Source of the DNA: Adineta ricciae
Taxonomy: Eukaryota; Rotifera; Eurotatoria; Adinetida; Adinetidae
Assembly: GCA_905250025.1 (NCBI GenBank)
Contig: CAJNOJ010000317.1
Coordinates: forward strand, 43,307 to 107,306
Direction: 5' to 3'
DNA: 64,000 nt
Shown: one piece after another, positions 10,301 through 55,037 of the stretch
How positions within the stretch are numbered: the stretch's first letter is position 1
Layout of the letters: every line of letters begins with the position of its first letter
Notes under the pieces: model-generated
The model's input: only the letters and a program-made list of their open reading frames with translations
Database searches by the model: none
What the model was told of the DNA's origin: nothing
Program-made: the position numbers and the translations under genes

Positions 10301-10465
10301 AAGTCTTCCCTCGACAACTACTTCTATCAGTTGAAAGATAAAATCTGGGTTTTCTTCAAAAAAACAGATCATAACCGTCTATTCAAATTAGTTTCACCTG
10401 GTTCGGTTGTTTCGAATCGCTTAAGAAAACAACAAGTACAAAGAATTCCTATGTTGTACGAATAA
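7357..10465 (+). pseudogene. hAT-type transposase gene 1, with an in-frame TGA
   Basis: Five exons: 7357-8276, 8336-8596, 8662-9193, 9248-9464 and 9522-10465. All have GT-AG introns of 53-65 bp and phases that join perfectly into ~957 codons. The start encodes a zinc finger of CLYC...HCNTYH type (BED/C2H2-like, residues ~14-31). Codon 48 is TGA (7498-7500), after which the same frame stays open. A Ser/Thr-rich linker follows, then an RNase H-like hAT core with an acidic motif (VTFDK), CAVDGAY and WDCAHLLELA, the last being the hAT signature equivalent of CAAHxLNL. A typical C-terminal hAT dimerisation motif is not obvious. AATAAA follows at about 10516. Apart from the TGA it is intact, so it could be a recently silenced element, a domesticated gene starting downstream of the TGA (an alternative GTG lies at 7597), or a sequencing error. 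Confidence 0.7.
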
Positions 10466-10579
10466 TAACGAACAGGACAAAATATTGCCATGCTTTTTAT
10501 TCCTGTTTTGTCTGAAATAAAGTTGGTTGGTGAACGATGAAGATAAAACAGCTGAGGAAAATTTTCAGAAAAATATTTC

Positions 10580-13500: not shown

Positions 13501-13788
13501 TCTATCTATCTGTCAGATGCTAATGGTTGTAAACGAGAAGTTTCCGCAACAGATCCAAGTCAAAGTGAAGCTATACAGTGTTGTCATCAAAACGAACAAT
13601 TCCAGTGGGTCGATTTCGATGAAAACTGCTCTCGATGGTTGTGCAATTATTGCAGAATCAAACACAGTATAAATGTTGATTCCATTTGGTTTTGCGATGA
13701 TCATGTAGATATGCATCACGAAGAACATGAAAATGAAATTGAAGTTTTTGATTATAATACAAGTTGGTGTTTTCGTTCTTATCGATAA
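10580..13788 (+). pseudogene. hAT-type transposase gene 2 (ZNF862/C17orf113-like), multiply broken
   Basis: A second, unrelated hAT gene directly downstream of the first. Recognisable pieces in order: a CFLCKKY zinc finger split by an intron (10869/10990); exon to 11400; exon 11459-11689 with the catalytic-region motif DETTS preceded by an in-frame TGA (11467-11469); exon 11740-11877 with the hAT hallmark CAAHTFNLVG; a frameshifted exon from 11920 containing FDIRWSS; pieces at ~12191-12355 and ~12411-13037; a second in-frame TGA (12903-12905); and the dimerisation motif NSVECERG joined across an intron (13037/13098) to FSAVNRIQT, ending at TAA 13206-13208. The intron at 11878 seems to use a GC-AG donor (GAG|GCAAGT). 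A Cys/His-rich tail (13234-13788) probably belonged to the same protein. At least one frameshift also lies near 10800. It is clearly no longer functional. Confidence 0.75.
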
Positions 13789-14937
13789 ACTAAACTTCGA
13801 CTTTTTGTTTTTTTAATCAGATTTTATTGTATATTTTTTTGTAAACATTTCTCTACTTGTGTTAGATGAAAAGGTAAATAGTGAATTTATTGAATTTGTT
13901 CATTCAACACCATACATTTGTGATACGTTTGTGATAAAATTGAAACTAAACATTTCTTTACTTGTCTAGATAAAATATTCTCGCTTGATTTGTACACTTT
14001 GCTTTCGGAAACAAAGTGTGTGCATACATCTTGTTACACTAAACAACGTGTACAAAAACATTTTGTATCAGATTTCCATTCGGAACCTTGATCCGGATAG
14101 ATTTGTTGAAAACCACGATTTTAATCTAAAACATCAGATTTATCAATCATTACAATCCAGAATTACTCGTATCACTGCGTTTTCACATAAAATAAGAATA
14201 ATTTATCAAACGCAAAGCTTTTGAACATAAAAAATCTCTTTCCAGAACGCTAATGACTATATTTTCTATTGTTATTCCATTCCGAACAGAAAAAAACGAT
14301 CACTTCATATACATTCGTACATTGTTCGTAATTGGGGGTAAATGGAGTATGATAGATGCGTTTGTAACAGCTATTTTTATGTCATATCTCTCAACAATGT
14401 TAACAGATGATATTCAAGCAACATTTCTTCTTGAATTCTATTGTCTTTGAATTTATTGTATCACTTCTTTGTTAGTTGTACAAAACAGTATAACCATCAA
14501 TAGCTAAAATCAAATACAAATCGATACCAATAATCTTTATCACATGGAATAATCACTCATTGTCTTCAAAATTTCATCGAATTCTTGTTTTCATATCTAC
14601 ATCTGAATTAGTCCAATAACTAACTTTAACAAAATCCGCGCGAATCTTCACTTCCAACCATTTGTCTTAAATAAAATTATATATCTATTCGTAGTAATAT
14701 ACCGCATATAAAAAAAAAACCTTCCCACATGTGATTGTATTTTTACATGCTTCATCATTATATAAAAACCATAAACATATCTGTGTTTTTTTTTCTCTCT
14801 TCTCTTTCTCTACATAGAGCGAATCATTGAATCGAACGAATCACTCTGTTCGAGCACGCATTATGCATTGCACATCAATTATATTCAATGTTTTTTATTC
14901 ATCTAAATTTTCTTAAATAGATTTTCAATTGAACAAC
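13789..14937. other. Upstream flank of PLC copy 1, matching 22.3-23.1 kb
   Basis: No gene is supported. From about 14080 onward the sequence aligns base for base with 22335-23133 with scattered substitutions and small indels, so it belongs to the duplicated block. The left part, 13789-14080, is unique. Conserved elements include the polypyrimidine run just before the PLC start. Confidence 0.6.
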
Positions 14938-16474
14938 ATGTTAACAAAAACTCAAGAGCAAATGAATGAACTTTTACGTGAATTAAAACTCGGTTGTGTA
15001 TTAGTCGAACAAAAATATGATGGAACAAAATGTTTTCGTCATTATTACTTACATAAAAGTGAGCAATTTGTAACATATCGTCAAACAAATCGAACACTCC
15101 CATCGCCAATACGTTGTAAATATTATTTATGAAAATGAAAAAATCCTATTTTTCTTCACGATTTTCTTTCTTATAGATTATATAAATCAAATCGATGAAA
15201 TACGCGTTGGGTTTAAAACACGAACATTTGATCGACTTATTAAACATAAACTTCTTAGACAAGATGATGTAAATAAATCTCTACGATTCATATTTAATAT
15301 ATTCGAAGTTTATCTACCTATAGGAACAATGCGCGTTTTCGATATTTTCGAATAACTATCGTGATGAAATCAATCTTCTTGCAAATGATGAAGAAATACG
15401 AAATATATGGATCGAAGGTCTTCAATATCTTATAGAAATTCATTCTCAAATTCAACAAAATTATCTTACTAATGAAACAAAGTAAGAATCAAACAATGTT
15501 CATAAGCAAAAAAAACAAATTTTTTGTTGTTAAGTTGGATTTTGAATTCTTTCTATTCGATTACAAAACAACGTTCAGATTCATTATCAAAAGATGAATG
15601 TCGACAATTATTAATTGATACATTCAATACAAAAGTATCTGATGAAGATTTTGAAAGATTTTTTCAAGTAAGTTTATATTTTTAACAAGGAAAATCTATT
15701 TTTTCTGAAATGTTCATTTTTAGAAAATCGATAAAAATTCATTAGTAAGTGATGAATTTCTCGAATTATTTCATTCAATTACACTTCGTCATGATCTTTA
15801 TAAAATAATGAAAAAGTAAATGAAAAATTTTTGTCTTTCATTTTCATTTCAATTGATTTGTAAAGATATGCGAATAATACGGAAAATCAAACAATTGATT
15901 CGCTTTATTTAACAGCAGAACAATTATTAGAATTTCTTCAAAAAGAACAAAATGTAAATTATAGTCAAATATGTTTTTTCAATGAATTGATTTGTTTTGT
16001 TTTTTCTAAGCAATTTGTATTAAAAACACGAAAAAATGATTCAAAATGTGATTTTACACTCGAATCAATCAATACAAATGAACAAGTCAAAGAATTAATT
16101 CAGCAATTTGAATCAAATGATCAAATGAAAGAAAATGGTCATATTAGTTTAAAAGGTCAACCTAATTTAATGAATTTTCATATATTTGATTGTTTTTTTT
16201 TCGTTAGGTTTTAGAGATTTACTTCTATCAGATGACTTTACTCTTATGAAACCATGGTGTTCTCGTTTTGTTTATCAAGATATGACAAGGTATAGATGTA
16301 TAAAGATAATTTATAACAAAATTCTATTGATAATTTAGACCACTTAATGATTATTATATCAATACATCATATAATACGTAAGAATAAATCAGAAAATGAA
16401 GATTGTAAATGAATTTATTGAGGTGTTTTTTATTTTGTTAGTTATTTATTTAATAATGAACATATTGGTGAAAG
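14938..16474 (+). CDS. Pseudo-phospholipase C, copy 1, 5' half (cut at N)
   Basis: Ten exons: 14938-15115, 15177-15268, 15324-15481, 15535-15667, 15724-15815, 15866-15953, 16011-16155, 16208-16289, 16339-16377 and 16442-16474. Each is the same length as its counterpart in the complete copy at 23134-26031. The encoded part covers the PH domain (with IDEIRVG and the NIWIEGLQYL end), the EF-hand-like region and the start of the X domain, where the expected SHNTYL motif reads SYNTYL, as in the other copy. The reading frame is intact up to 16474 and stops at an N (16475), beyond which unrelated minus-strand sequence begins. The missing 3' half appears 27 kb downstream at 43598. See the complete copy for function. 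Confidence 0.75.
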
Positions 16475-16475: not shown

Positions 16476-19400
16476 TTCTTGGACGTTTGTTAGTCGTCCA
16501 TTCGTTGTTCTGCTTTCGGATTTGCAGTGGGGAGATTTGATGAAACTGATCTGACGCCACTGGTGACTCATACCCCTCGTTGTGATTATTCATCACAGCA
16601 AGGGATAAGGATAAAGATGAAGATAAGATACGAAGAAGAACGTAAGAATCGATATGTACGCGACTAACCGGTGCGAACGAAAAGTCGTGAGTGGCGTGTT
16701 TATGACTTGTATTTGCATAGACTGTTATAAAATGTGCAGCTACTTTTTTATGTAGTAAATTCAATTCTTCGTCGAAATCAATTTCAATTCGTGAACTATT
16801 GAATTCACATTGATCACCTGAAAATCCGTCCGGACATGAACATGTAAATTTTTTCTTTGCGTCGACAAATCTTCTATCTGTAGGAATACATATTCCATTA
16901 TTAAAACATGGTGATGATAAATTTGATTTACAAACATCATATTCGAGATAACAACGTGTACCAAATTTATGCACTGGACATAAACATGAAGTTGATGTTC
17001 CCATACAAATTGAATCTGGTGAACAATGACATTGATATGGAATATCACATCGAATTCCTCGCCATCCTGAATTACAATGACAAAATGTTTCACCATTGGT
17101 AACATATCGTTTTAAAGTTCCATGATTGCCGCAAATAGAAGAATGAGAATTTGCATTGATTGATAGTGAAGGAATTATTATTTGAATAGGCATTCGATGT
17201 ACTGGTAAAAATGGAAATTTAATTGGATATAACCAACTTGATCGATAATTCGATGTATTACCAGCATAAACATCAATTCGTATAGAATATTCTTTTTTTT
17301 GATCTTTCGATCGTGAGTTATATAAAAAATAAGTTGTAAATTTCGTCCGACAATCATGTACAGCTGTATAGACAAATTGTTCAAATGAATGAACAATTGA
17401 ATCATTATCAATTAATGTTATTCCGATGAGAAAGATCATTCGCCATTCTATTTTTGTTCCACATTGAAGAGTTACAGTTACTCGTTGACTTTGATATTCA
17501 CATTTATCTCCATAATAACTTGGTGGACACAAACATGTGGATATTCGTCCAGTTTGTATTGGTATACCACGATTGCATAAGCGATGATAAGTTGGAAAAT
17601 TCGAATAGTGACTTTTTAATTTAGAATCTGACAATAGTTCATACATTGACAAAGAATTATCTGTCGATTTTGAATTTTTCGATGTTTCTAAAACATTTGG
17701 ATACACCGTCGAAGAATCCAAAGTAAAATGAACAATATTTCGTTTTCGCGTTTGATCAAGACTACAAAGTATTTCAAAAACATATAACTTATATCTTGCC
17801 ATATCTTTCGAACAAGTTACATGTTCACTAGTCCAAGTAAAATATTCATTCATTCCATATTTATTCTAAAGTAAAATGCGAGAAAATATTATCAAGGAGA
17901 TTTTTTTTCGTCATATAATGTCGAACAAATTCTTTCAAAACTTCGGTTGTACGAGTACAAAAAAAGCACGCATGAAACATCAATTGATGAGAAAATCCTT
18001 TTGCCAAAATTATCGGAGACAATCTTAAGCATGTCGGAAATCGCAGAACAACTAACATGGAAAAATGACCAATTCAACTTACGGTAATGTAATCGCAAAG
18101 ACGTTCATCTTCGTCATTCCAACAGTCCGACTTTCCATCACATACAACATTAGGATTATAACAATGCTCTTCTTCTGAACATCGATAACGTTGAGTAGGA
18201 TTATTGAATTTATTTCGACATAGATGCCTTTCATCGAATGCACCTAGACAATCAATAAAATTATCATTTACCAACGTTATATTTAAACATATCGGTGTGA
18301 GTGTAATAGATGATATACAAATATGTTGCATTGGTTGACAAGATAAATTCAATGAAGAAGAAATTAAATTTGATGAACAACCAACTTCATCTAAACCGTT
18401 ATCACAATTCCAATACCCATCACAATGAGTATATGTAGTATTACAAGGCCATATATGATAATCACAATTTGTTTCATCTGTCTCTATTGTTTGATCATCC
18501 ATTATCAGTGGACGATGATCTTCAAGTCCATCACATAATGTTGCAAATGAAATCATTGTATTTATGTTGGTTTTTTCAATACCATTTTCATGATCTGAAC
18601 TAACTTTTCGAGTTAAACAATCATATTCAGTATGAGCATAGAGAAGTGGAGAAATACATTTCAATGTTTCATTATTTCTACACTGAAAACGATATTTGTT
18701 ATAAGTTAACGCACAACTATGTTCATAAGTTTCATCATCATTTAATGGACAATCTTGTATTGAATCAAGAAGACGATGTTTTGAGACACATTTATCAGAT
18801 TGCAGACATTGATACAACTGAGAATGTGAATCACAATCGTTTTTCATATATCTATTCACTTGATCATATGTCATACAATTAGCTGAATAAAAAGTTTCCA
18901 CAGCTTTTCGAAAATGATGCCATGAACGAATTTGATCATGATTTCGAATAGGTAAATCTGGTTGATTGTGACAAGTGAAGAACGTTTGATTATCTAATGT
19001 TATACGAACGGTCTTGTTGAAAAATGGGCATAATGTTTTATTAAAGCAAACATAGACTGGAGAGACAAATTCCCTTGGTTGATAATAATTTCTTTGTGTA
19101 TTTGTATAGAAAAAATAGATATGACCAAGTGCAACAGGATACGACGGATAACGAAATAATTCTGGACAACTAAGTCTTATAGATCTACTACATGAATCGA
19201 ATTGAATACAATCACAATCTTCGAATGTATTAATCCTTGCGAGACAACTGATTAATTTCCAACATTCTTTCCCGAGTATTTGATCGATTGGTTTTTCATT
19301 CCAAAGAATATCTAATTGTTCACTTCGTCCATTTCGACAATCAAAAAAATCATCACAAGATCCATCTCCACAAACAAATGCATTCGAATCTGCTCGACAT

Positions 19401-20161
19401 GTATGTTCTTCACATGCAATCACTGAATTAATATAACAATCTCGTGAATAATCCAAAAATTCATCCGAACGATCAAGACAATCGGGATGATATGGATCAT
19501 CATGCCAAAATCCAGAAGAAATACATTGTGCTCCATTGTGACAACGATATTCATCAGAATGTGTACATTCGTTTAATTCCAGTTCAAAACAAAATTGTTC
19601 ATCAATAGCATCATTTAAACAATGAATTATTCCATCGCAAATTTCACGCCAATCTAAACACAATGGATAGGGATAAATGTAATTACATGATAAATGTATA
19701 TAACATGATGTCGGTTTTGTTAAATATTCTTGGTCATCTTCATCTCCAAATTGACGAAGTGATTTTATAATAAGATCATCAATTGATTTATGTTCAATTT
19801 CGAATTTCAATTGGCATGAAGGTCCAAACAAAGGCCATGTACAATTATAGAAATGTTTCAGACCTAAAATCGATATATTTTGTGAAATATTCATTAAATA
19901 TATTTGATAATCTTCAACAATATCAATTGGCGCTGACCAGGTAAGTAATTCATAATGTGTTATACCACGTTGACGCAATTCATTGAAACTTATTGGAGAA
20001 TTAGGTCTGTGAGATTCTAAATAAGTTTCATTTGTTCGAATACAATATGTATAGAAAGAACGTGATGATAAAATCAAATCTTTTGTGCTATCGAGTGTGT
20101 AATGATAAATACAATACTGATCTTCATTTTCGTCGTAGAAATTTTCATCGGTTTTGTACAT
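16476..20161 (-). CDS. LDLa- and EGF-domain receptor, 3' end missing at the N
   Basis: Two exons: 20161-18083 and 17865-16476, with a 217 bp intron (GTAAGT ... TTTAG) joined in phase 0. The first exon (~693 codons) has a series of about seven LDL-receptor class A modules, some degenerate, with clear C-D-x-x-x-D-C-x-D-x-x-D/E signatures such as CDGKSDCWNDEDERLC and CDGYWNCDNGLDEVGC. The second exon carries a CxCPPSYYGDKC EGF, then about three more EGF-like modules near its end (GWRGIRC, HKFGTRC, GFSGDQC). No signal peptide is seen at the 20161 ATG; an in-frame stop lies five codons upstream. A homologue at 42993 does have one, so the 5' end is incomplete or decayed. By analogy with the fragment at 53.2-55.0 kb, the lost C-terminus should be a seven-helix domain. 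It is likely a cell-surface receptor; ligand unknown. Confidence 0.7.
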
Positions 20162-20211
20162 ATCTATCTTAAATTACAAAAAAGACGAATCATGACGAGT
20201 GACCTGTGTCA

Positions 20212-20971
20212 TATGACAATGATTATAAAATATACTCAAAATTATCATATTTTAAACATTAAGTTCGGTGTTGGTTCTCACAGGTGGAAGTACACGAATC
20301 AATTTCATTTAGATACTCACATATTTCTTGGAAATGAATATACTGAATCAACGATTAAATTTCTATGTTTTAATGATTTATGTGCTGAAGAATATTGACA
20401 TTCATTTGTTATCAATGGTAAACTTAATTGGCTATTTGAATTAAATAAAAAGTTTGAAATCATGAAAGGTTATTTTCGACAAGAGTTACAATTGATCGAT
20501 GATACTGATAGAATTCTTCAGCGAAAAAGTCAATTACAATGTTATGATGGTGATAACTTAAATGAAGTTATGAAATGTTCTGAAGACATGTGTTTTTATA
20601 TGAAATCATTTGATTTTCTTGATGATTATTCTTGCGGAGCTTCTCGTTTAAATTTCTTGGATGAACAAATTAAAATACAATACAAAATCTTACCAACAAT
20701 TAATGAAAATCCTTTATTCGCATTCGCTTATTCTTGTAGTACAAATAAATGTAATAAATATGAAACAACAGTAAAAATTGGTGAATTTATTCGTCAATAT
20801 TATAACATTTCATATCAATTCAAATCTTCTATGATGTATTCAAATGAAATTAAGAATCAATCACTATTAAATATAACGAATCAAACAATTTTATTCATAA
20901 CAAGCAACTGTATCACTCGTCGATCCAATAATTATACAATATTTATTCTACTATTTGCATATCTATTTTAA
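20212..20971 (+). pseudogene. Ly-6-like GPI-anchored cysteine-rich protein, 5' part damaged
   Basis: The frame from 20462 to 20971 encodes 169 residues with paired cysteines. One module runs from QCYDGD to SCSTNKCN, whose C-x4-C-N end resembles the Ly-6/uPAR three-finger fold. It finishes with several N-glycosylation sequons and a hydrophobic tail (IFILLFAYLF), as in GPI-anchored proteins. The same frame continues upstream through a TGA at 20396-20398 into CFNDLC, the likely end of a preceding module. Its start is unclear because the upstream sequence overlaps the divergent receptor gene. The start coordinate given is approximate. Either the gene begins at ATG 20462 without a signal peptide or the 5' half is a pseudogene. 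Confidence 0.45.
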
Positions 20972-21429
20972 CACGAATCATGTAAGTGCGTGTCTATATT
21001 CGTTTATCTTACACACGCACATCGTCGAACAGTCGAATATCATTTCATTTTCTTCATCATTCGAAGAGTTTTATGACAAAAAGTTTGTCAAATGATCCTT
21101 GGCAAATATTTCTAAATAAAAATGTATACGAACATGTCATTGACAGTATTAATATTTACATATGAACTACATCCAGAAAAAAAAGTTTCTTTTTTCTTTC
21201 TTTTTAAAGACAAAATGAACAGGTATTTTTCATTGTAATGCCAACCTGTCTCAATAGTCAAAATCAAAATATAGAATTATCATTTTCAATTCTAAACAAA
21301 TCTCATTTACTCATAGAATACGAAAATCTCGACAAGACAATAACATACAAACAATTTTGAATATGAAGAAAATTTGATTAAAATGAAGATCGAATTTAAG
21401 GAAATTCATGTCGCATCGATTGGTTATTT

Positions 21430-21840
21430 CATTTGAGAAAAAAAGTTGAGAAATTACGACGAAATTTTATCAAAGAACTGTATGTTTCATCTTCAAATTC
21501 TCAATCGAAACGTCGGATAAAATGTTATGACGAAGACGATGATACTACACCTATATCTTGCGATCATCTTTGTTATTATTCTGCTATGAAAAAAATGTAA
21601 TGGATTTGAGACACCGAGTAAAATTGAAGATTTTATCACAGAAGCTTATAACATTTCTCATCGTTAATAACTTTTTCGACTGCAACAATAACAACGAGTA
21701 CATTAGTAACGTTTATTACAACGATGAATTCAGTAAGAAATGGAACAATATCAAACGAAATACCGGCAAATTTCACTTGTAGTTTGATTGATTTAAATAT
21801 TTTGTTTCTCGATTATTTCGTTTTAAGCTTTAAAGAATGA
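21430..21840 (+). pseudogene. Broken second copy of the Ly-6-like gene
   Basis: Fragments in different frames match the gene at 20462-20971 in order. One around 21454-21600 gives KCYDEDD..SC..LCYY (compare QCYDGD..KC..MCFY). One around 21598-21666 gives CNGFETPSKIEDFI (compare CNKYETTVKIGEFI). The middle of the module is missing, with a stop and frameshifts between pieces. A Thr/Ser-rich stretch and a hydrophobic end follow (to ~21840). This is a tandem duplicate that has decayed. Confidence 0.5.
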
Positions 21841-23133
21841 GAACAAATTTGAACATAAAATCACATCGTAGAAAAGATTCATTTCATTTGTTCACAAAAC
21901 AATCGGTTCTAATTCATTCGAAGCATCAATAAGGATACATACGCTTTAACGAACACGAGAGATTTATTTAAAATAGAAATTCAAGCGTAACTTTCAAACA
22001 GTTATTGATGAGATTTTTACTGTATAAATCCATTTGTCAAATATCTCTATAACTCTATATTTTCCTTCAAATAAATGTTATGTTTTACTATCAACATCAT
22101 TCATTTCTCTAATGGTATTTCATCGTTGTAATCAATTAGCTATCGAACTATCTTAACAAGAAAAATTCTTTATCTTCGAATCCTTTACAAGCACAATACA
22201 GTGTAGAGGTAAATTATACAATCTGTTTGTGTTTATAACATGCGTTATATAAAACATGTGGCCAAACATATTCGTTTTGTCACCCATGATTACCCATCGA
22301 AAGAAATTTATTCTTTTTACTTTCTCTATTTATATAATATTGAATCATCCGAACAGATTTGTTTAGAGCCGCGGCTTTAATCTAAAACATCAGTTTTATC
22401 AATCATTACAATCAAGAAGTATTCGTGTCACTACTTTTTCACATAAAATAAGAATAATTTATCAAACACAAAGTATTTGAACATAAAAAGCCGCGTTCCG
22501 GAACGTTAATGACTATATTTTCTGTTGTCATTCCATTCCGAATAGAAGACATTATATACATTCGTACATTGTTCGTGATTGGGGTAAATAGAGTATGACA
22601 GATGCGTTTGTAAAAGGTATTTTTATGCCATATCTCTCAACAATGGTAACAGGTGATATTCAAGCAACATTTCTTCTTGAATTCTATTGTATCACTTCTT
22701 TCTTAGTTGTACAAAAAATATAAGCATCAATAGCTAAAATCAAATAGAAATCGATACCAATAATCTTTATCACATGGAATAATCATTCATTGTCTTCAAA
22801 ATTTCATCGAATTCTCGTTTTCACGTCTACACCTGAATTATTCCGATAACTAATTTTAACAAAATCCGCGCGAATCTTCACTTCCAACCATTTGTCTTAA
22901 ATGAAATTATATTTCTATTCGTAGTGATATACCGCATATTAAAAAAAAAACCTTCCCACATGTGATTGTATTTTTCCATGCTTCATCATTATATAAAAAC
23001 CATAAACATATCTGTGTTTTTTCTCCTCTCTTTCTCTACATAGAGCGAATCATTGAATCGAACCAATCACTCTGTTCGAGCACATTTTATACATACACAT
23101 CAATTATATTCAATAGATTTTCAATTGAACAAC
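21841..23133. other. Intergenic; right part is the PLC upstream flank
   Basis: 21841-22335 is unique AT-rich spacer. From about 22335 to 23133 it matches 14080-14937, the flank of PLC copy 1. No gene is supported in either copy, although conservation of the T-rich and splice-like segments just upstream of the PLC ATG suggests promoter or 5' UTR. Confidence 0.5.
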
Positions 23134-26031
23134 ATGTTAACAAAAACTCAAGAGCAAATGAATGAACTTTTACATGAATTAAAACTAGGCTGTGTATTAG
23201 TCGAACAAAAACACGATGGAGCAAAATGTTTTCGTCATTATTATTTACATAAAAGTGAGCAATTTGTAACTTATCGTCAAACAAATAGAACACTCCCATC
23301 GCCGATACGTTGTAAATATTATTTACGAAAAAGAAAAATGTGATTTTTTTTCTTCTTCTATAGATTATATAAATCAAATCGATGAAATACGCGTTGGATT
23401 CAAAACAAGAACATTCAATCGACTTATTCAACATAAACTTCTTAGACAAGATGATGTAAATAAATATCTCCAATTTATATTTCATACATTCGAAGTTATT
23501 TACCTGTAGGAACAATGCGCGTTTTCGATATTTTCGAATAACTATCGTGATGAAGTCAATCTTCTTGCAAATGATGAAGAAATGCGAAATATATGGATCG
23601 AAGGTCTTCAATATCTTATAGAAATTCATTCTCAAACTCAACAAAATTATCTTACTAATGAAACAAAGTAAAAATCAAACAACATTCATAAGCAAAAAAA
23701 CGAACTTTTTGTTGTTAAGTTGGATTTTGAATTGTTTCTATTCGACTACGAAACAACGTTCAGACTCATTGTCAAAAGAAGAATGTCGACAATTATTAAT
23801 TGATACATTCAATACAAAAGTATCTGATGAAGATTTTGAAAGATTTTTTCAAGTAAGTTTATAGTTTTAGCAAAAAAAAACTATTTTCTGAAATGTTCAT
23901 TTTTAGAAAATCGATAAAAATTCCTTAGTAAGTGATGAATTTCTTGAATTATTTCATTCAATTACACTTCGTCATGATCTTTATCAAATAATGAAAAAGT
24001 AAATGAAAAATTTTGTCTTTCATTTTCCTTTCAATTGATCTGTAAAGATATGCGAATAATACGGAAAATCAAACAATTGATTCGATTTATTTAACAGCAG
24101 AACAATTATTAGAATTTCTTCAAAAAGAACAAAATGTAAATTAGTCAAATATAATTTTTCAATGAATTGATCTGTTTTTGTTTTTTTACTAAGCAATTTG
24201 TATTAAAAACGCAAAAAAATGATTCAAAATGTAATTTTACACTCGAATCAATCAATACAAATGAACAAGTCAAAGAATTAATTCAGCAATTTGAATTAAA
24301 TGATCAAATGAAAGAAAAGGGTCATATTAGTTTGAAAGGTCAATCTAATTTAATGAATTTTCATATATTCGATCGATTCCTTCTTTAGGTTTTCGAGATT
24401 TACTTCTATCAGATGACTTTACTCTTATGAAACCATGGTGTTCTCGTTGTGTTTATCAAGATATGACAAGGTATAGATGTATAAAGATAGTTTATCACAA
24501 GACTTTATTGATAATTTAGACCACTTAATGATTATTATATCAATACATCATATAATACGTAAGAATAAATCAGAAAATGAAGAATTTGTTGGATCTTTTG
24601 TTTTGTTAGTTATTTATTTAATAATGAACATATTGGTGAAAGTAATCCGGAATCATTTAATCGTATATTAAAAATGGGTTGTCGTGCAATTCAAATCGAT
24701 TGTTATGATGGTGATCATGGTCAACCCATTGTTAAAGATAATTTAACACTTGCTAAACCGTATTTATTCGAATCAATTATTCGTTCTATTCAACCGAATC
24801 TTTTTAAAATATCAGTTTATCCTGTTATAATTGATATTGGCAATCATTGTTCGAATGAACAAGAATTTCAAATAACTCAAATTTTACAAAAAATTTTCGG
24901 TGGTAAAAGAATTTTTCGATGAAAGGAAACGTCGATGAATTTCTCATCTAAACTAGATCAATTGATAACTGAATCGTTATTAACAAAACATTCGTTGGTT
25001 TTACCATCACCAGAAGATCTTAAATACAAAGTTATTATTCGAGTAGGAAGAATTGGATTTTTTTTCGAATGAAAAATATCTTTTGAATATTGAAGGGAAT
25101 CAATTTTCCTGCTCTGATTGATGAAGAAGAATATTTCCATGAAGTATATGTTGACAATTTTGTCTTTTCGAAGTGAAATTTGTTAGTTTAGATAAATGAA
25201 AACAACATCGACGATCAGGACTTTGTTGATGATGATGAATATGAAGATGCAAAAGATTATGTTCCTTATTATCAATCAGAAAACCTTTCTGAAAAAGATT
25301 TTAATCGATTTGTTGAAGTTAATTCAATAGATTTGATTAAACAAACATTGAATTCATTTCTTCTCATGTATCCCGATGATCTTCAACAAGATTCAAGTAA
25401 TCCCGATCCAATTACACCTTGGAATTTTGGTATTCAAATGGTTGCATTAGATTATCAAAATGATGATCCGATTTTATCATTATCTTATGGAAAATTTATG
25501 GATAATGGAAATTGTGGCTATGTATTAAAACCAGAATATTTAACTCATATTAGCAGATCTTTATTTAATCCTTTAAATTATATAACAAAACCATTGAAAT
25601 ATTCGGAACATATTTTTGAATGTCCACAACGTTTAATTTTGACAATTATTAGTGGACAATTTCTACGTCGAACCAATGCTAGTGATCCATATATTCTTAT
25701 GTCTACACGTGGAATTCCATGTGATCAACAAATACAAAAAACGAAAACATTTAGCTGTAAAAGTTTGAATTTAGAATGGAATGAAATATTTCAATTTGAT
25801 ATTTATTTTCCTCAAATGTGTTTAATGAGATTTGATGTTTGTGATCATAATCGTTTAGCTTACTTTTGTTTACCAATAACAACTATGCAGACAGGTTTAG
25901 ATAATCGATTTTGATTTGATTTTGTAATTCTTTCGTCTTTTTAAGGTTATCGTCATATTCATTTAAGAGCAAATAACAATAGTTTAACTTATTCAACATT
26001 ATTTATTCATGTTCAATTTAAACCAATATGA
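23134..26031 (+). CDS. Phosphoinositide phospholipase C-like protein with a dead active site (complete copy)
   Basis: Fourteen exons: 23134-23311, 23364-23455, 23510-23667, 23720-23852, 23907-23998, 24048-24135, 24194-24338, 24389-24470, 24520-24558, 24610-24902, 24957-25042, 25096-25143, 25192-25894 and 25946-26031. They total 2223 nt, 740 residues, with every junction in phase. Domain order is that of PLC-delta/PRIP: PH (residues ~15-140, IDEIRVG, NIWIEGLQYL), EF-hand-like (~145-270), X (~300-430), acidic linker, Y (~490-590, FMDNGNCGYVLKPEYL) and C2 (~605-740, LTIISGQFLRR). Aligned to rat PLC-delta1, His311 is Tyr (SYNTYL), Glu341 is Gln (IQIDCYDG), His356 is Asp (VKDNLTL) and Glu390 is Gly (DIGNHCS); Asn312 and Asp343 remain. 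Hydrolysis of PIP2 is therefore not expected. A PRIP-like role as a phosphoinositide-binding or InsP3-buffering scaffold is inferred. An upstream exon cannot be excluded. Confidence 0.85.
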
Positions 26032-26619
26032 CCAATTGATTTAGAATGAACTTTTTACAATTTTCTTTAGTTTGAAAATAAAATTCAAACATTGGCGAAA
26101 AGAGAGAAATCTCTATCTATTTTTATTCTCTAAAACTGAAGGTGAATATCTGAGAGCGCTCTGTCTAAAGTAAAAAAAGGATTTAATTGGTAATAAAGAA
26201 TGACATTATTGAGAAATTTACACTATTCCTTGGCTGAGACTGGATTATAGTCGATGAGTCAAATGTGAGTTTTTTGCTATTCGTTATGAAATTCACAATC
26301 GTTTTTTTTCTTCTTATTATTACCAACGTTTGTTTTGCTATAAATCTGTAAGCTGGATATACGGTATTCGAAAGTTATCGGAACTAGCTTTACGTGGATC
26401 CATTCTATTCTTTTCTTTATTTTATGAATTACCAATCATTCTTCTTACTGATCAAGTACATCAATATTTGTTAATGATAAACATAACTTCATTCGTGAAT
26501 AACAAGACAAACGAAATCTGATCCTGTTTGTATAAGTTATGATTTTGAAATTCTAATAAGAACGAGCGTTATCAATGTAAAAGGTTTCCATTTGAATATT
26601 GAAGAAAAAAAAACAATAC
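26032..26619. other. Short spacer between PLC and the three-helix protein
   Basis: No gene is seen. It corresponds to 44330-45153 in the second copy, which is longer by about 200 bp. Confidence 0.5.
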
Positions 26620-29277
26620 ATGTATATGATCAAGATTGAGATCGTGTTTATTGTTCTGGTTGAATGTAATCTATTCATTAAAGCTGATCAATCCGATTTT
26701 TCCATAAGTCCCGATGGTTATCTCTCAATATTACGTGATTCCAATGGTAAAAGGATTGACACCGCTGGTATTGTAATTAATTCGCCAATATGGGCATTCT
26801 CAGAGAATAATAATGAAGATTATTATAAATACAGTTTTTATGAAGATCACTCTTGCAATAAGATCGATCCAAATTTAGAATCAATCACCCATGTTATTGC
26901 AATACGAGGCGATAAATTTGTTTATCTCGGTGAAGATTATAATAAGACGCAGCGAATTGGTTTAGTTCAATTAAACTATATTTTCGATCAAATAGATACA
27001 TTTGAACTTGAATTTACTGTGCTCAATAATCAAACGGTCGACAATCCATATGAGACTCTGATGACTATATATGACCATCGCCTTGAAAATCGAGTTTATT
27101 TCTTTTCAGCTGTTGGTTTTTTTATGTATAATCTTCATACGTTTGAAATCAATTCATATTCCTGGCTGAATTCATCAGATTTGAAAAACTTTCATGATTT
27201 ATCAAATATTATCGTTGTTGGTGAAAATTATTTCTTACTCGGATTTGGAGAAACATCATTCCGATGTGAAAAATGTCCTTCATTTTTATTAGTCGAAATC
27301 GATTCATTTCTAGAGGTACGACTTCATAGTTATGAAACAATCAATTTATCGGAATATGATGATTTTCAAGGTCGAATGGTAATGTCAATCAATGATCACA
27401 ATGATCTGGCCATTCTATTTCAAGAAATCAATTTAATTGCCTTTGGAAATATTGATTTGAATATAAAACGAATCACAATCAATACCAAAAAGGTTCTTTT
27501 AGATCAAGCTGGGCAATTACCCAGTCATTCAGTTCTTTGGGTAAACAATACTCGACAATTAGCCGTTCTTTTTTCAAATGCGCCTCTCACTCAATTCGCA
27601 AATTCATCGATATTCTTTTTCAATTATGAAGATGAAGATTTACGTATTCAAAATGTTTTTCCAAATAAACAACAAAGAATTACCTATGAAAAGGAAGATC
27701 AAGTACCAAGTTTTTCGAATTTGATTAACATTAATGGAAACTATTTAGGAATAAGTGCAGAATATCCGGAACAGAATTGGTATTTATTGATAATACCATT
27801 GATATCGTCGAAAGGAAAAGAATTCATTGATTTTGGTGGTCCGCTGGATGATGATTTGATATATCGATTTGCAACATTTGCTGCGTGCTTGCCGGGAATG
27901 TATAAAAACTCGAATCGATCATTGGAACAATGTGTTTATTGCCCTACAGGCGAAAAAACATCGAAATCTGGTAGTATTCAATGTGAAAAATGTGAGAAGA
28001 AGGAAAATTGTCCATTAGCAGCATTAAGTGATGAGTTTGAATACAAAAATGTTAATCAGATAGTTAGTTACCCATCGAAATCGAACATTGACTCATTCGA
28101 TGATATAATCTTATCAAATATGTTTCATTTTCAATGTCTTTCTATTTCTCCAGCGTTTTGGATGTTTCTTGTTATTTCGATAGTTTTATTTTTGGCAATT
28201 CTTGTTTTCCTCTGTTCGTATTTCCCATCGACATTTCGTTATCGATTGAAAATTCATCAAATTCTCTCACATATTGATTTAATTACTGAAGGTCAACTGT
28301 GGATTGGCGGTGTCGTCTCTTGTGGTATATTCGTTCTGGTTACATTCGCTGCTTTGTTTAGTTTTGAATACATGAATCTGTATCCGATTGAAAACTTTCG
28401 TTCTTCATCGTTTGTTTGCGATTCAGATATTGTCAATGCCAAATTTACAAGTGGATTACAATTACTCGCATTACCGAAAACTAATGACGAACGTCCCATC
28501 TTCGATTTACTTGATGGTCAACCATTTCAATTAGTATTTCACTTGATAAATACAAACCTTGATTGTGTAAATTCCAGATTCGATATTAGACAAAAGAATG
28601 GTGATTATTTTACTTCTTTCCCTTCATTTAATTGTTCAATGAAGGACAATAATGCGACATTAGCATTAGTTGTTACACTTTTAACACACGTTGCACGAAC
28701 AACAATTAAGATTAGCTCAGTTCATCCGATAGCCATCCTTCAAATCTGTTTACAAGGATCCAATCGAACGATCGACGATGGAAAATATGTTTTACGTTCA
28801 TTATTTGCTTGCAACGTATTTTCCGATGCCAATCATACAATTGATGAAAATCCAGAATTGGATATAACTTTAACAAAAGTAGTTAATCGGACGGAATCGT
28901 TAGAAGGTAATCAACAAATGCAATATTCTGGTCTGTGGATTCCTTTGATCACTGGAAAAGATATCACGACAAAAACTCGCTTGGCACCAACGGACGAGTA
29001 CCTCCGGTATCTTAGTTTATCAACAACAATTTCAATCCAATTACGAGAATCGCAGTTTTTCATTCAGAACACTCAGGAACCAATTGCAAGAAAATATGAA
29101 ATACTTTTTCGTAATGTGCTCTTTCTCGGTGTGGTGATTGAACTATTTTCATTGACATTTTTAATCTGTAAACTTCTTCTTAGACCAATCATTCACTTAA
29201 CTTACCAATGTTTCATCGGACTTTGTCTCCTCAAGCGTTTTAAACGAACGAAATCTATCGAAAAAACAACATTTTAA
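26620..29277 (+). CDS. Three-helix membrane protein with ephrin-receptor-like cysteine motif, copy 1
   Basis: Intronless frame of 885 residues. I take the ATG at 26620 because the second copy keeps the same codon; the frame is open slightly further upstream without an ATG. A signal peptide (IEIVFIVLVECNLFI) is followed by ~400 residues of beta-rich ectodomain with no named family, possibly propeller-like. A GCC2/GCC3 (ephrin-receptor-like) motif follows at ~425-470: CLPGMYK...CVYCPTGEKT...CEKC. Transmembrane helices lie at ~510-535, ~560-585 and ~830-855, with a second glycosylated extracellular loop of ~240 residues between the last two, and a short basic tail. It looks like a surface receptor or channel-associated protein. 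The family is unknown to me; no kinase or other enzymatic domain is present. Confidence 0.8.
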   Translation: MYMIKIEIVFIVLVECNLFIKADQSDFSISPDGYLSILRDSNGKRIDTAGIVINSPIWAFSENNNEDYYKYSFYEDHSCNKIDPNLESITHVIAIRGDKFVYLGEDYNKTQRIGLVQLNYIFDQIDTFELEFTVLNNQTVDNPYETLMTIYDHRLENRVYFFSAVGFFMYNLHTFEINSYSWLNSSDLKNFHDLSNIIVVGENYFLLGFGETSFRCEKCPSFLLVEIDSFLEVRLHSYETINLSEYDDFQGRMVMSINDHNDLAILFQEINLIAFGNIDLNIKRITINTKKVLLDQAGQLPSHSVLWVNNTRQLAVLFSNAPLTQFANSSIFFFNYEDEDLRIQNVFPNKQQRITYEKEDQVPSFSNLININGNYLGISAEYPEQNWYLLIIPLISSKGKEFIDFGGPLDDDLIYRFATFAACLPGMYKNSNRSLEQCVYCPTGEKTSKSGSIQCEKCEKKENCPLAALSDEFEYKNVNQIVSYPSKSNIDSFDDIILSNMFHFQCLSISPAFWMFLVISIVLFLAILVFLCSYFPSTFRYRLKIHQILSHIDLITEGQLWIGGVVSCGIFVLVTFAALFSFEYMNLYPIENFRSSSFVCDSDIVNAKFTSGLQLLALPKTNDERPIFDLLDGQPFQLVFHLINTNLDCVNSRFDIRQKNGDYFTSFPSFNCSMKDNNATLALVVTLLTHVARTTIKISSVHPIAILQICLQGSNRTIDDGKYVLRSLFACNVFSDANHTIDENPELDITLTKVVNRTESLEGNQQMQYSGLWIPLITGKDITTKTRLAPTDEYLRYLSLSTTISIQLRESQFFIQNTQEPIARKYEILFRNVLFLGVVIELFSLTFLICKLLLRPIIHLTYQCFIGLCLLKRFKRTKSIEKTTF

Positions 29278-29739
29278 TAAAGGGGCAAAAAAACACATAC
29301 TCTTATTACGATGTACATAGAATATATTAACCTAGTTTCGAGAATGTGGGTGTAGTTGGTGATAGAAGAAGAAGCATGTTCACGCACACGTACCCTCGAG
29401 ATGTTTTCCCTAAAAAATCAGACTCGATATCGATCATGATCTACTTTGATGACGAAACGCAAGAAAAATACTCATATGTTTTCGACCGTATCACTTTTAG
29501 GCATACAATTTGTAACAATCTAATCTGATGTTTCTTCACAGATCATAAAAAAGCAAATTGTTCGAAAGAAATGCAGTTCCCTAGAAAAACTTCGAAAAGA
29601 AAACGAGCCCCATATAAGCATGCGGCAAATTAGGCGACCAAAAAGCCATTTGTAAATTTTCATCCGTGCAAAATACCGTCTTGTGAGAGCATGAGTGTGA
29701 AGTGAATGACGAGAGAGACATATTCACATCCTCATTTAT
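29278..29739. other. Intergenic between convergent genes
   Basis: Holds the 3' ends of the three-helix protein (AATAAA at the stop codon) and the ART gene. It matches 47812-48368, which carries an extra 105 bp. No gene is seen. Confidence 0.5.
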
Positions 29740-31083
29740 TCATTTTTTTCTTAGAACATATTCTTCCGGCACAGAAATGTTCTTTAGGAGTTGTTTTAAG
29801 GTTTGTGATTCTCTCTTTGGAAAATGTTGGTGAAAACGATCCATCGAACCTTTAGGATGTGTTAATATCCATTTAAATGACGATAAAATATCTTTATGAG
29901 GTAACAAAACATTTGTTAAATAAATTGTATAACATGATGATTGATATTCCACACGATCTACATGAAATATTGTCCATGGTAATATAAGAATTTCAGCTTC
30001 ATTTTCGAATTCCGATAAACAAGGTTGCTCATTTGATATTCTACCTAAATCAATTGCTTGATCACAATGTATCGGAAAATTAAATGTAAATAGAACTGAA
30101 TTTCGACGGTTTTCCGATGGATTTTTATTATGATGGGTTAAAAATTCTTCTGCAATAGAACGTTGCGCAGATGATGAAGAAAAATGTTTTGTTTGTAAAA
30201 AGCTTTGGTGATGAACAGCGGCATTTTGATAAATAGCAATATCATCATCGTCCAATTTGGCACCTCGGTAACTTTGTCCTTGAAAATATCGATCTTTCAA
30301 TGTTTCTAATGTTTTGTATAAAGGTAAAGCTAATGGCATTGGATCTTGTCGAAGAGCATGATAAAGTTTTGTTTCTAATGTGTACAATCTTATTAAATAT
30401 TCAACACCTCTTGTTTCATCAGGATCATTTGAAAATTTGTTCAATAAGTCATTTGCTTTGGTTGATTGAGGATCTTCATTAGCAGTAATTTCTCGATCGA
30501 TTAAATCTTGAAGTCTATTTGCTATATTTTTCAGTGACATTGGTGCATCAGGATGAAATCTATCCGCAAGAAATCTTCCCAGCTTTGACTGTGATAGAGC
30601 TATCGATGTTGTTGAAAAGCCAATTTCAAGTTGTTTTTCTTCTTCAGTTTTGTAATCTTCAACTGTCGATGTCTTTATTTTTCCATGTTTTATACTACTT
30701 ACATATTCCTTAGGTGGTTTAACAAATTCGAAACAATCTGCGATATTTTCATCTTGGAAACGAGATGCACTCGAATCACCATCACTTGGACGATTAAAAA
30801 GTTGACGAATTTCGTCATTAGCAGCTTCTTCGTAAGCCGTAAGACCATAACTATTTGTTTGTGATCGATCACATCCGTATTGAAGAAGAAGTTTAACTAT
30901 TTCTGCATGACCATAAAATGAAGCTGCGTGTAACGGTGTACTATTTATATGTGTTTCAATTTCATTGGGATTCCATTTGGTTGGTGATAATGTTGTGAGA
31001 TAATTTCTCACATATTCTACATCACCATTTCGACAGGCAAGGTAAAATTTGCTGATTTGAGATGATTTTTCCGAATTTGTCAT
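29740..31083 (-). CDS. Ankyrin repeat-ADP-ribosyltransferase (ART) protein, copy 1
   Basis: Intronless, 447 residues, starting at MTNSEKSS. Residues ~12-100 contain about two ankyrin repeats (TPLHAASFYGHAEIVKLLL; GLTAYEEAAN). The C-terminal half (~200-430) fits the arginine-type NAD ADP-ribosyltransferase fold (PF01129). An arginine in SYRGAKL, a serine cluster (HFSSSSAQRS) and ENEAEILILPW stand for the R-S-ExE signature, with the catalytic glutamate in EAE. No signal peptide or membrane segment is visible, so it is probably intracellular, unlike vertebrate ecto-ARTs. Predicted reaction: transfer of ADP-ribose from NAD+ to a protein, substrate perhaps chosen through the ankyrin repeats. It is divergent from the Kv channel gene and convergent with the three-helix protein. 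Confidence 0.8.
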   Translation of the reverse strand: MTNSEKSSQISKFYLACRNGDVEYVRNYLTTLSPTKWNPNEIETHINSTPLHAASFYGHAEIVKLLLQYGCDRSQTNSYGLTAYEEAANDEIRQLFNRPSDGDSSASRFQDENIADCFEFVKPPKEYVSSIKHGKIKTSTVEDYKTEEEKQLEIGFSTTSIALSQSKLGRFLADRFHPDAPMSLKNIANRLQDLIDREITANEDPQSTKANDLLNKFSNDPDETRGVEYLIRLYTLETKLYHALRQDPMPLALPLYKTLETLKDRYFQGQSYRGAKLDDDDIAIYQNAAVHHQSFLQTKHFSSSSAQRSIAEEFLTHHNKNPSENRRNSVLFTFNFPIHCDQAIDLGRISNEQPCLSEFENEAEILILPWTIFHVDRVEYQSSCYTIYLTNVLLPHKDILSSFKWILTHPKGSMDRFHQHFPKRESQTLKQLLKNISVPEEYVLRKK

Positions 31084-32646
31084 AGTTGTTTATTGTGTTT
31101 TACATATATAAAAGCTACGAATAAATGAAACATTATGTCTTGCGCATCATTTTTCATATGAATCATCACATACTCACTAATAATATTGATCATTGGTAGA
31201 TAATATTGCTGTCTCATGTCGAACAAGCAAAATAATGAAAAGAAACGCCCTCTTTCCTCCGGTCATTTCTCTTATACAATTTTGTTTACGCACGCTAGTT
31301 TTCGAGTTTAACTATACTGAAGATTTCTTAATACAAATTCCGCTGTTTCTCCTGTCGGTGGAATTAATAGGTGTAACATTTGTTCATTTTTTAAACTTTA
31401 TTATGGTTTCTTTGGAAATATATCTATCATTTACACAGAAAAAAAAACAACAACGGTAGATTTCTCAAAGCTTTTTCGTGGAAGCAGCAGATTCGCCAAG
31501 TAGCACATATTTAATGTTTTCATCCGGATGTAATTCATTGATGTTGAACAGCTGAATGGATTCAATGAAATTTGTTTCTTCTTCAATATTTGTGGAAGAG
31601 GAGAAATGTCATACTCTTTGCTTACTGCACACGCGGTGTAAAAAACGTGGTTAATTGTTACATTTTCTTCAAAGAGAGGAGGCTTCTCTCGAAAAGAAGC
31701 AAAATGTATAGTAGTCGACCTCCACTCGCTTATATGATCTATGTCTCGAGAACGGCTCATCCATTTGTCCGACAAATTTTAGTCTAGTTGATGACATCGT
31801 TTGAGTATAAGCATAGTCATAGGTTAGATGCAATGACTTCTAAATGATCCAACTAGTTATTGCCTATCTGATAAGATATCTAATTGCTTGTTTTTTTTTC
31901 TTATGAGAAAAGAAAATAGATACATGGTTGAATAAGCACTGTAGTTAATAGCAATATAAAATAGTGTAATCATCACATGCTTTCTTTCATGACTTGTTTT
32001 CGTTTAGAATGCAATCTACTACTTTTGTCAATATGCCTTCAAACAGCCTTGTTTCATAATTTAAGCTAAATATCATCGTGTTATTTTTATTCGATACATG
32101 CGTTAGTCAAATGAGATTTTTTCATATATTTGCTTGAGAAGCCTTATTTTCAAGGATCAGAAACAGAAGAGACCTCTAATTTCGTTACTATAATGCATTT
32201 TCGTGATGATCAAATTTCCGATCAGTAGTTTCTTGAAAGTTGAAGTACTATAGCATAATCCATTCTAATATTTCCTTCAATACACTGAAAGAACCAATGC
32301 TATGTAAAACCTGGAACATCTTCGATAATTTTACTGAATTCTAAGCCTTTTTCGATTATGTGTAATATAAAGGTTCGTCGAAAAGTATTTTCTCTTCCAT
32401 GTTAGAAACACTTCTATAGTCGTAGATCGTATTTCTTCTTAAATTGAGTTGCGTTTTAAAATTTGTTTTCATAATTTGTCTATCTTCTCCTTGTTTAGTT
32501 GAAACGTGAATATAGTGACGTCGTCCTTCAATTCGGCAAACTGTAGGATCCTAAACGAAAAAAGCAAAATAACAAACAAGTTAACCATTTTTACGTTCTA
32601 TTGTTTAAACTATCCACATACTCTCTCTCTCTCTCTCCTAGCTCCT
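31084..32646. promoter_or_regulatory. Divergent intergenic region between ART and Kv genes
   Basis: This 1.56 kb region separates the two divergently transcribed starts. It matches 49716-51441 over most of its length with small indels, including AT-rich boxes and a (CT)n tract next to the Kv start (32622-32638). No gene is supported. It must hold both promoters; no specific motif can be assigned. Confidence 0.45.
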
Positions 32647-34307
32647 ATGTCTGAATCTAGAAAAAGAGAAAATCATGGCGTTGTAGAGTAAGTTTAAAAG
32701 ATATATTCTTATGAATCTAATTTAGAGAATTTTGTTCATTCATTGAAGTTCAAGAGTATCCGAGAAAAGCTCAATTGTTAGAATCAATGTTGGTGGCTGT
32801 CAATTTGAAATCCATTTGTCCAGTCTCAATGCTTTTCCCGAATCACTATTGGGTGATGAAAATAAACGAAAAATCTTTTGGAATACAGATCGACAAGAAT
32901 ACTTTTTCGGTCGACATCGTGCATGTTTTGAAGCAATTTTATATTATTATCAATCAAATGGACGTCTTCGTCGACCTGATCACGTTCCATTAGATATATT
33001 TCTTGAAGAAATTAGATATTTTCAATTAGGTCCAAAAGCACTTGCGCAAGTGGTAGAATCAGAAAATTTACGTGAGATTAAACCTAAGATAATGCCTAAT
33101 GAGCGCTGGCGTCGGCTTATTTGGCAACATTTGCAATATCCTGCATCTTCAATATTAGCACGTGGGATCTATATTATTTCAATGGCTATTACTCTTCTTT
33201 CCAGTATCACATTAGCTATTGAAACTTTGCCAAGTATCAAAACAGATTTGTTAGGTCTTTGTTTTAGTGGAACAAATCTTAACGGCTCTTCAACATACCA
33301 ATTTGTGGCAGGTTGTCCGAGAATATTTTCTACAATGCCATATTTTACTATTGAAAGCATCTGTGTTTCATATTTTACAATCGAATTTTTTCTTCGTTTA
33401 ATCAGTACTCCATCGTATAAAGATTTTTTTCTGTCATTTATGACTTGGGTCGATATATTAGCTATTGCTCCCTATTATTGCATTGTGCCTTTATTAGCAA
33501 CCAGTACAAGCAAAGGTGTAAACCTGACAGTTGTACACATATTTCGTCTCTTACGTGCACTGCGTACACTAAGACTTTTAACCATTGTTCGAGAATTGAG
33601 ATCAATGCGTGTTCTTGGTAGAGCTTTGAAAGAATCAATGTTTGATCTTGCAGGAGCGGCTATCAGTATAACTACCATAGCATTTCTGTTCGGATCAGCA
33701 GCTTATCTTGCAGAAGAAAAAGACAATGCAAATTACAGCTCGATTCCAGCAGCAACTTATTGGGGAATTATTACAATGTCAACCGTTGGGTAAGTAAACT
33801 GGTGACAAAGCGAATTTTTGGAGGCACTTTAATCACACTATCAATTTTTAAATTGATTTTAACAGTTATGGTGATATTTCTCCAATGACATGGCTTGGCC
33901 GTATAATAGCTTGTATGTGTGCAGTTTTTGGTACGGCAACGATGGGTATGGTTATTTCTGTTCTTGGCGAAAGCTATCAACGTGTTTATAAACAACAGAC
34001 ATATGACCCTAATGAACAAGAACCATTATTAGTCGATTGGGATCGCATGAGTAACGTAGAAGAAGAGAAAGAACAAAATATGGCTAAAAACCTAGCGACT
34101 CGATCTAAACTTAATTTTTCTATTTCAAGCAATGATGGTAATATTGATGATCACTTAGCCAATCTGATCATTAAGCATTTAAATGAAAAAGTTATTGAAA
34201 TACAAGAAATTATTCGCAAAGACATTTATTTACAAATGATTGATAATGATAACCAAAAGCCAGCAGATAGCAGTGTTAATACATCTTTACGCTACTTTCG
34301 ATTATGA
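32647..34307 (+). CDS. Voltage-gated potassium channel (Shaker-superfamily), complete copy
   Basis: Three exons: 32647-32687, 32749-33789 and 33866-34307, phases consistent; 507 residues. A T1 tetramerisation domain (RINVGGCQFEIHLSSL, YYYQSNGRLRRPDHVPLDIF) is followed by S1 (~ITLLSSITLAIETL), S2, S3 (WVDILAIAPYYC), an S4 helix with regularly spaced arginines (FRLLRALRTLRLLTIVREL), S5, a pore with selectivity filter TMSTVGYGD and S6. Length and T1-S6 order fit a tetrameric Kv subunit in the plasma membrane. S6 lacks the PVP hinge typical of Shaker-type channels (it reads GTATMGMVISVLGES). The last intron splits the GYG filter codon. The C-terminus is short with a possible coiled coil. The Kv subfamily cannot be assigned with confidence. 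Confidence 0.88.
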
Positions 34308-43596: not shown

Positions 43597-43597
43597 N
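43597..43597. other. Single N: junction from LDLa receptor to PLC 3' half
   Basis: Left of the N is the receptor; right of it, from the next base, the sequence matches PLC exon 13 at 25298. The reading frame happens to stay open across the N, so automated annotation may fuse two unrelated genes here. Confidence 0.85.
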
Positions 43598-52804: not shown

Positions 52805-53181
52805 TTGTTAATGAAAAAATACTTCGAGTTACTTTCTTTTTATATGTATACGAAGATTTTCTATGATTCAGGTGGAAAAAAAAAGTATCCCAGGGAATAA
52901 AAGATCGTTTCAAAGCATTCTGTGGGATGGGAGAGCAGCTGTTTTCTTTATGACACATAATGGGATAGAAGCAAAAATTTTATCTCCCATCATATAACTA
53001 TTCATACTATAGCTAAATATTTATTTACGATAGAATTCGCTACATATTTATCAATGTCAATAATATACACGAACATCTATGTTCAAATAATTCTTAAAAT
53101 TTAGGACACGAGAGGTAAAGATCATGTATTTGCGCCATATGTAAATAACGCGTATGTACAGCGTTACTTTCATCCTTCACA

Positions 53182-54970: not shown

Positions 54971-55037
54971 CTGGAAAGTGATGTTTTAAGGCGGTTTTTT
55001 GCCGTTTTTTTTCTTGTGAGAGAGACAGTGAGATGAT

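Follow-up and report, generated by a model that had tools for sequence, protein, structure and literature searches.

Can a phospholipase C (PLC) that has lost most of its catalytic residues still be maintained by selection, and if so, what could its product be doing? The question is raised by a locus, W1, in the 64,000-nucleotide stretch of Adineta ricciae DNA analysed here (the window, which lies in contig C317). A first-pass annotation of this DNA had proposed a maintained pseudo-enzyme analogous to vertebrate PRIP. The evidence below argues that W1 is a maintained pseudo-enzyme, with a probability of roughly 0.85, and that it most likely acquired this status separately from PRIP.

The gene itself is intact. 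The first-pass annotation had described a 14-exon gene for a 740-residue protein of PH-EF-X-Y-C2 architecture, and the rebuilt model and its Pfam domains bear this out: a 2223-nt coding sequence encodes 740 residues and ends in its only stop, and each of the 13 introns has GT-AG ends and a length of 48-58 nt. Spliced alignment of the W1 protein back to the DNA returned identical exons, which is a consistency check only. Pfam finds PH_12 at residues 16-127, EF-hand_like at 205-310, PI-PLC-X at 321-462 (141.1 bits against a cut-off of 23.1, E 2.6e-41), PI-PLC-Y at 502-594 (82.9 bits against 28.8) and C2 at 625-700. With both X and Y above the Pfam cut-off and the delta-type order PH-EF-X-Y-C2, W1 belongs to the PI-specific PLC family; PLC zeta, epsilon and delta1 rank as its best PDB relatives by sequence. 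The gene and its domains are laid out as follows.

23134-26031, + strand: pseudo-PLC gene copy 1 (W1), 14 exons, 740 residues
23134-23311, 23364-23455, 23510-23667, 23720-23852, 23907-23998, 24048-24135, 24194-24338, + strand: W1 exons 1-7
24389-24470, 24520-24558, 24610-24902, 24957-25042, 25096-25143, 25192-25894, 25946-26031, + strand: W1 exons 8-14
23179-23620, + strand: PH domain, residues 16-127 (Pfam)
24463-25042, + strand: PI-PLC-X domain, spliced (Pfam)
25261-25539, + strand: PI-PLC-Y domain (Pfam)
25630-25857, + strand: C2 domain with two shortened loops (Pfam, alignment)

The active site has fared differently. At the PLC-delta1 columns H311, N312, E341, D343, H356 and E390, W1 carries Y, N, Q, D, D and G. 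These columns come out the same whether W1 is aligned to rat PLC-delta1 (1djg) with HMMER or placed in a 31-row MAFFT alignment, which confirms the substitutions listed in the first-pass annotation, H311Y, E341Q, H356D and E390G, with Asn312 and Asp343 retained. In W1's own numbering the four changed residues are Y334, Q364, D379 and G413. Positions and residue roles are otherwise given as in PLC-delta1, with the spacing verified in the MAFFT alignment. The codons concerned are the following.

24551-24553, + strand: H311Y
24554-24556, + strand: N312
24692-24694, + strand: E341Q
24698-24700, + strand: D343
24737-24739, + strand: H356D
24839-24841, + strand: E390G
25363-25365, + strand: R549L, in both copies of the gene

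The active-site calcium ligands of PI-PLCs are N312, E341, D343 and E390; W1 retains two of these four (N312 and D343), and both catalytic histidines are changed (Tyr at His311, Asp at His356), so that on neither count does it have the site of an active PI-PLC. Among further positions Y551 is retained, S522 is Asn as it also is in C412, the contig with the closest paralogues, and K440, which is Ile in W1, is unconserved among the other delta-like loci of the genome as well. H311Y, E341Q and H356D each lie one base from a codon used in active paralogues, and E390G lies two bases away. All six catalytic codons are internal to exon 9 or 10, with none at a junction; shifted splice sites would therefore skip the catalytic core rather than restore its residues. 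The losses are also concentrated where catalysis takes place. Among X/Y positions invariant in 13 delta-like paralogue loci, W1 has changed 4/6 catalytic against 8/83 other positions (one-sided Fisher p=0.0026, positions treated as independent), which leaves the barrel framework mostly kept (75/83); with the eight closest loci, and again treating positions as independent, the contrast is 4/6 against 16/127 (p=0.0047). The W1 product is predicted to be unable to hydrolyse PIP2.

Calcium-binding elements outside the barrel are degraded too, and the PH domain shows a mixed picture.

23748-23783, + strand: EF-hand loop 1, degenerate, TKQRSDSLSKEE, lacking acidic ligands 1 and 3
23913-23939, + strand: EF-hand loop 2, DKNSLVSDE; the C412 paralogue has 3 more residues here
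25669-25692 and 25837-25860, + strand: C2 loops, shortened by 5 and 6 residues relative to C412
23233-23235, + strand: PH residue R34, aligned with PLC-delta1 R40 (HMMER against 1mai)

The first position of EF loop 1 is Asp in 13/13 aligned paralogue loci and Thr in both pseudo-PLC copies. Judged from their sequences, the EF and C2 loops of the paralogues would bind calcium, and the W1 product would be insensitive to it. In the PH domain, where PLC-delta1 residue numbers (R40, K30, K32) are presumed to apply, the HMMER alignment to 1mai also pairs K26 with K32, and places E24 at K30 and A30 at W36. When the PH domain of a paralogue is aligned, HMMER places R40 one residue further along, at a position whose equivalent in W1 is His35. 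With Glu in place of K30 and Ala in place of W36, high-affinity InsP3/PIP2 binding by this domain is uncertain. A PDB search with 75 PH residues matched no PLC.

Is this the decay of a single gene? The window holds a second copy, which the first-pass annotation had placed at 14938-16474 with frame, exon lengths and the SYNTYL change preserved. H311Y and N312 are seen within that span; it is the 5' part only, however, and the 3' half at 43598-44329, unmentioned there, was located by a whole-genome DNA search (window match 43593-44329).

14938-16474, + strand: 5' half of copy 2 (346 codons), ended by an N (16475) after the first 33 nt of exon 10
43598-44329, + strand: 3' half of copy 2 (226 codons in the comparison), comprising exon 14 and, from about residue 516 on, exon 13
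22347-33886, + strand: block bearing copy 1, with its second copy at 14091-16474 plus 43598-52685

The 3' half is taken to start at 43598, since the 4 bases ahead of the N (43597) belong to the other contig piece. The 5' half carries H311Y, N312 and the degenerate EF1 and EF2 loops, and the other four catalytic positions are absent from it; the 3' half carries R549L and both short C2 loops. E341Q, H356D and E390G are consequently seen in copy 1 only, the corresponding copy 2 codons being missing from the assembly: for the roughly 650 bases of copy 2 that would hold the E341, D343, H356 and E390 codons, a whole-genome DNA search yielded nothing else beyond 78% identity. As far as they can be read, all splice sites and reading frames are intact in both copies.

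The duplication extends well beyond the gene. In a self-comparison of the window, 22347-24642 matches 14091-16474 and 25297-33886 matches 43593-52685 in pieces; block identity is 88.6-94.7% in pieces of at least 120 bp, and single Ns bound the second copy at 16475, 43597 and 52686. To the right of the gene the shared block holds open frames of 893, 449 and 348 codons, with second-copy counterparts of 927, 453 and 357. By eye, one frame of the shared block is ankyrin-like (29743-31089, - strand; counterpart 48372-49730) and another BTB/tetramerisation-like (32747-33790, + strand; counterpart 51519-52589). Elsewhere in the window, about 15 imperfect 147-base repeats form an array at 38224-40616, which we take to resemble FG-GAP/VCBS protein repeats. 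The halves of copy 2 flank the stretch that holds copy 1, so the order of genes here may be an artefact of scaffolding. The two copies may be alleles joined into one scaffold or may stem from a tandem duplication. When an allelic contig was sought with three window flanks, 16500-22300 and 53000-59000 had no long partner, and for 7500-14000 the one partial partner was C514 (90% over 2.7 kb); C587 matched there at 84%. The C412 pair shows a like pattern, 28500-34023 matching 43578-49082 at 91.8% identity with an N at 34025 (L021, L051, L022). PMC5916493 reports only two homologous blocks on one scaffold in A. ricciae; the present assembly departs from a close match with that account, since pairs share one contig at both C317 and C412.

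The relatives of W1 were sought across the 130 Mb genome (1033 contigs). PLC-X matches fall in 30 regions, 27 of which were modelled, leaving out three weak ones (C164 twice, C97), and a Y-domain search of the genome added no contig to those of the X-domain search. Gene models at the more distant of these loci are rough outside X and Y, and two of the C105 models required a frameshift when built from one of the two queries. All six catalytic residues are kept in 24/24 non-PRIP-like loci modelled elsewhere (15 delta-like and 9 other). The full set is lacking at three further loci (C234 twice, C20), called PRIP-like here from their lesions and from what we take to be PRIP features; a PDB search with the C20 locus named only ordinary PLCs and C2 proteins. 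D343H is present in all three (L047 in C20, L030 and L031 in C234), and C20 also has H311Y and E341D. In a tree of 30 rows and 513 columns (LG+F+R4), which includes no PRIP sequence of another animal, W1 and copy 2 join the active C412 pair with support 99.7/100, inside a well-supported delta-like group, and the PRIP-like loci group with rat PLC-delta1 (92.2/72). As C20 stands elsewhere in the tree, its H311Y change arose separately, in a second PLC lineage. PRIP orthology of W1 was set aside on this tree, which is one without a true PRIP sequence. The earlier analogy to PRIP fits as an analogy: the same tree, again without a true PRIP, puts W1 beside an active paralogue and away from the PRIP-like genes.

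How old is the split from the active paralogue? NG86 dS is 1.09 between W1 and C412a, 0.114-0.189 in five other pairs and 0.409 for C10a/C10b. Mean KS in A. ricciae is 0.135 for homologues and 1.27 for ohnologues according to PMC5916493, which suggests that the divergence of W1 from C412 is of ohnologue age. A comparison of C412:28500-50000 with the window found synteny in the PLC stretches only; with no wider synteny, it is divergence that carries the ohnologue reading.

Evidence for maintenance comes from the comparison of copies 1 and 2 over 572 shared codons. The dN/dS test that the first-pass annotation had proposed gives a pairwise ML omega of 0.150 (95% CI 0.10-0.24; omega=1 rejected, p=5.6e-11), far from the value of about 1 that would speak against a maintained gene, and each half of copy 2 rejects omega=1 alone (5' 0.123, p=1e-8; 3' 0.195, p=7e-4). 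By NG86, dN is 0.024 and dS 0.090 (ratio 0.267). Five active paralogue pairs treated by the same ML method have omega of 0.062-0.294, a range within which the pseudo-PLC pair falls; a sixth, C10a/C10b, stood outside the ML step and has an NG86 ratio of 0.228. The copies differ at 61/1723 exon sites (3.5%) against 63/517 intron sites (12.2%), so that introns are about 3.4 times more diverged (p=6e-12), and 10 indel events separate their introns but none their exons, where the intron rate would predict 33. The 5' flank has diverged less than the introns (61/786 sites, p=0.009), a weak sign that the promoter may be constrained, although indels do occur there. A branch model was fitted to ten sequences and 656 codons, of which copy 2 covers 531; its tip omega is 0.205, and lnL drops from -11227.47 to -11242.86 when that omega is set to 1 (2dlnL 30.8). 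H311Y, R549L and the EF and C2 lesions are common to both copies, and selection has therefore acted on a protein already without those residues and loops; this argument does not extend to E341Q, H356D and E390G, which are unreadable in copy 2. The low omega, the exon/intron contrast and the shared lesions together support the maintained pseudo-enzyme that had been proposed.

Constraint is nevertheless weaker in W1 than in its active sister, as it evolves faster than C412a: with six outgroups, W1 has 84-88 lineage-specific changes against 29-49 in C412a (Tajima p 9e-4 to 1e-7), and the stem of the protein tree is 0.343 for W1 against 0.081 for C412. Of the two copies, copy 2 has the longer branch, by a factor of about four. 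The acceleration of W1 is clearest in X and Y, but the idea that it is limited to the catalytic barrel found partial support only: X+Y of W1 is faster than that of C412a with 6/6 outgroups (p 0.0002-0.0012), PH+EF+C2 is also faster with 4/6, and the contrast between the two is significant with 2/6 only. The stem omega of the branch model (0.111) was set aside on account of GC3 (0.14 in W1, 0.32 in C412a, L021) and of inconsistent NG86 dS (W1-C178 0.945, C412a-C178 1.796); GC3 is low in C178 and C63 too (0.17-0.19).

Could W1 instead be an incipient pseudogene, with constraint lifted and a stop or frameshift yet to appear? Its pace relative to the active sister, the long copy 2 branch and its low GC3 would all suit such a history, but an omega of 0.150 with omega=1 rejected, the missing exon indels (0 against 33 expected), the greater divergence of introns and the intact visible splice sites and frames in both copies make it very unlikely. 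An enzyme that still hydrolyses phosphoinositide or another phosphodiester by an altered mechanism might draw on N312, D343, Y551 and the 75/83 framework positions kept. Against this, we know of no active PLC without both catalytic histidines, and W1 has lost these, R549 and two of the calcium ligands. As PMC10149971 describes the family, catalysis falls to His311 and His356, and a surviving activity of this kind is highly improbable.

The remaining alternatives concern origin and role. A highly diverged PRIP/PLCL orthologue, rather than an independent loss, would share the architecture and the kind of lesion seen here, down to the H311Y of the PRIP-like C20 locus; yet W1 is placed with active delta-like genes at 99.7/100, and the three PRIP-like loci lie elsewhere in the tree with a D343H that W1 lacks, so that orthology, as judged on a tree without a true PRIP sequence, is very unlikely. 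A different proposal accepts the pseudo-enzyme but has it act mainly by protein contact, for example as the prozyme partner of the active paralogue, without a lipid role. The active sister is still in the genome, and with R549, H311 and H356 lost and Glu at PH K30 the lipid grip may be weak; the PH framework with its R40-equivalent residue is retained, however, and a trypanosome PLC-like protein, when tested, left its active partner unmodulated, according to PMC10051276. A purely protein-based role therefore seems rather unlikely.

The preferred reading remains a delta-like gene that lost catalysis and calcium loops and was kept as a PRIP-like lipid or partner adaptor, and taken as a whole it is probably right. 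A PLC-delta-like member of an expanded family would have lost its catalytic residues and calcium loops after the split from the active C412 paralogue, and would have been retained thereafter as a pseudo-enzyme under purifying selection. Its product would most likely act as a membrane-bound adaptor whose PH domain occupies phosphoinositide or InsP3 and/or the partners of active PLCs, and which would damp or shield PIP2 turnover as vertebrate PRIP does. According to PMC6726632, the PH domain of PRIP binds PIP2 and fails to do so as R134Q, PRIP blocks the access of OCRL1 and PLC-delta1 to PIP2, and its X-Y domain associates somewhat with PIP2. Given a maintained pseudo-enzyme, a shield of this kind is suggested by analogy, with a chance that falls somewhat short of even. 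The W1 barrel, with H311, H356 and R549 gone, would be expected to serve as a protein-contact surface and not as a lipid pocket, the reported PIP2 association of the X-Y domain of PRIP notwithstanding. In a more tentative version, two PLC-delta ohnologues from the bdelloid genome duplication parted ways: C412 remained an enzyme, and the other lost its active site and recognisable calcium loops to become a calcium-blind antagonist guarding PIP2/InsP3 against this sister. That version, in which animals would have invented the PRIP principle a second time and in one lineage, is possible but doubtful.

Should the preferred reading hold, animals would have evolved inactive PLC scaffolds on at least two occasions. 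The joint loss of active site, EF-hand and C2 loops under continued selection predicts a calcium-independent role, which would be of interest in a group known for surviving desiccation, and the active sister, at 66% identity in the same genome, makes a direct comparison with W1 possible.

How does W1 compare with known systems? The matches listed in a search of open-licence papers include no rotifer or bdelloid pseudo-PLC. The PI-PLC-like protein of Trypanosoma brucei resembles W1 as a PLC-X protein reported in PMC10051276 not to hydrolyse PIP2, but has X plus PDZ only, without Y, EF-hand or C2. Rat PLC-delta1 (1djg, 1mai) has the same domain order and aligns with W1 over PH, EF, X, Y and C2, but its active site is catalytically competent. 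The active C412 PLC (two copies) is the nearest relative, with 488/734 residues identical (66%) and 14 exons; unlike W1, it has all six catalytic residues, the EF loops and the long C2 loops. PRIP, as presented in PMC6726632, is like W1 a PLC-delta-like protein without PLC activity (predicted in the case of W1); PRIP has an X-Y domain, and its PH domain binds InsP3/PIP2. In contrast to PRIP, W1 stands apart from the PRIP-like genes of its genome, with H311, H356, E341 and E390 all changed and its calcium loops degraded. Its loss of conserved sites is presumably wider than that in PRIP. Inactive relatives of PLC were already known; what is new is, apparently, a rotifer pseudo-PLC of separate origin.
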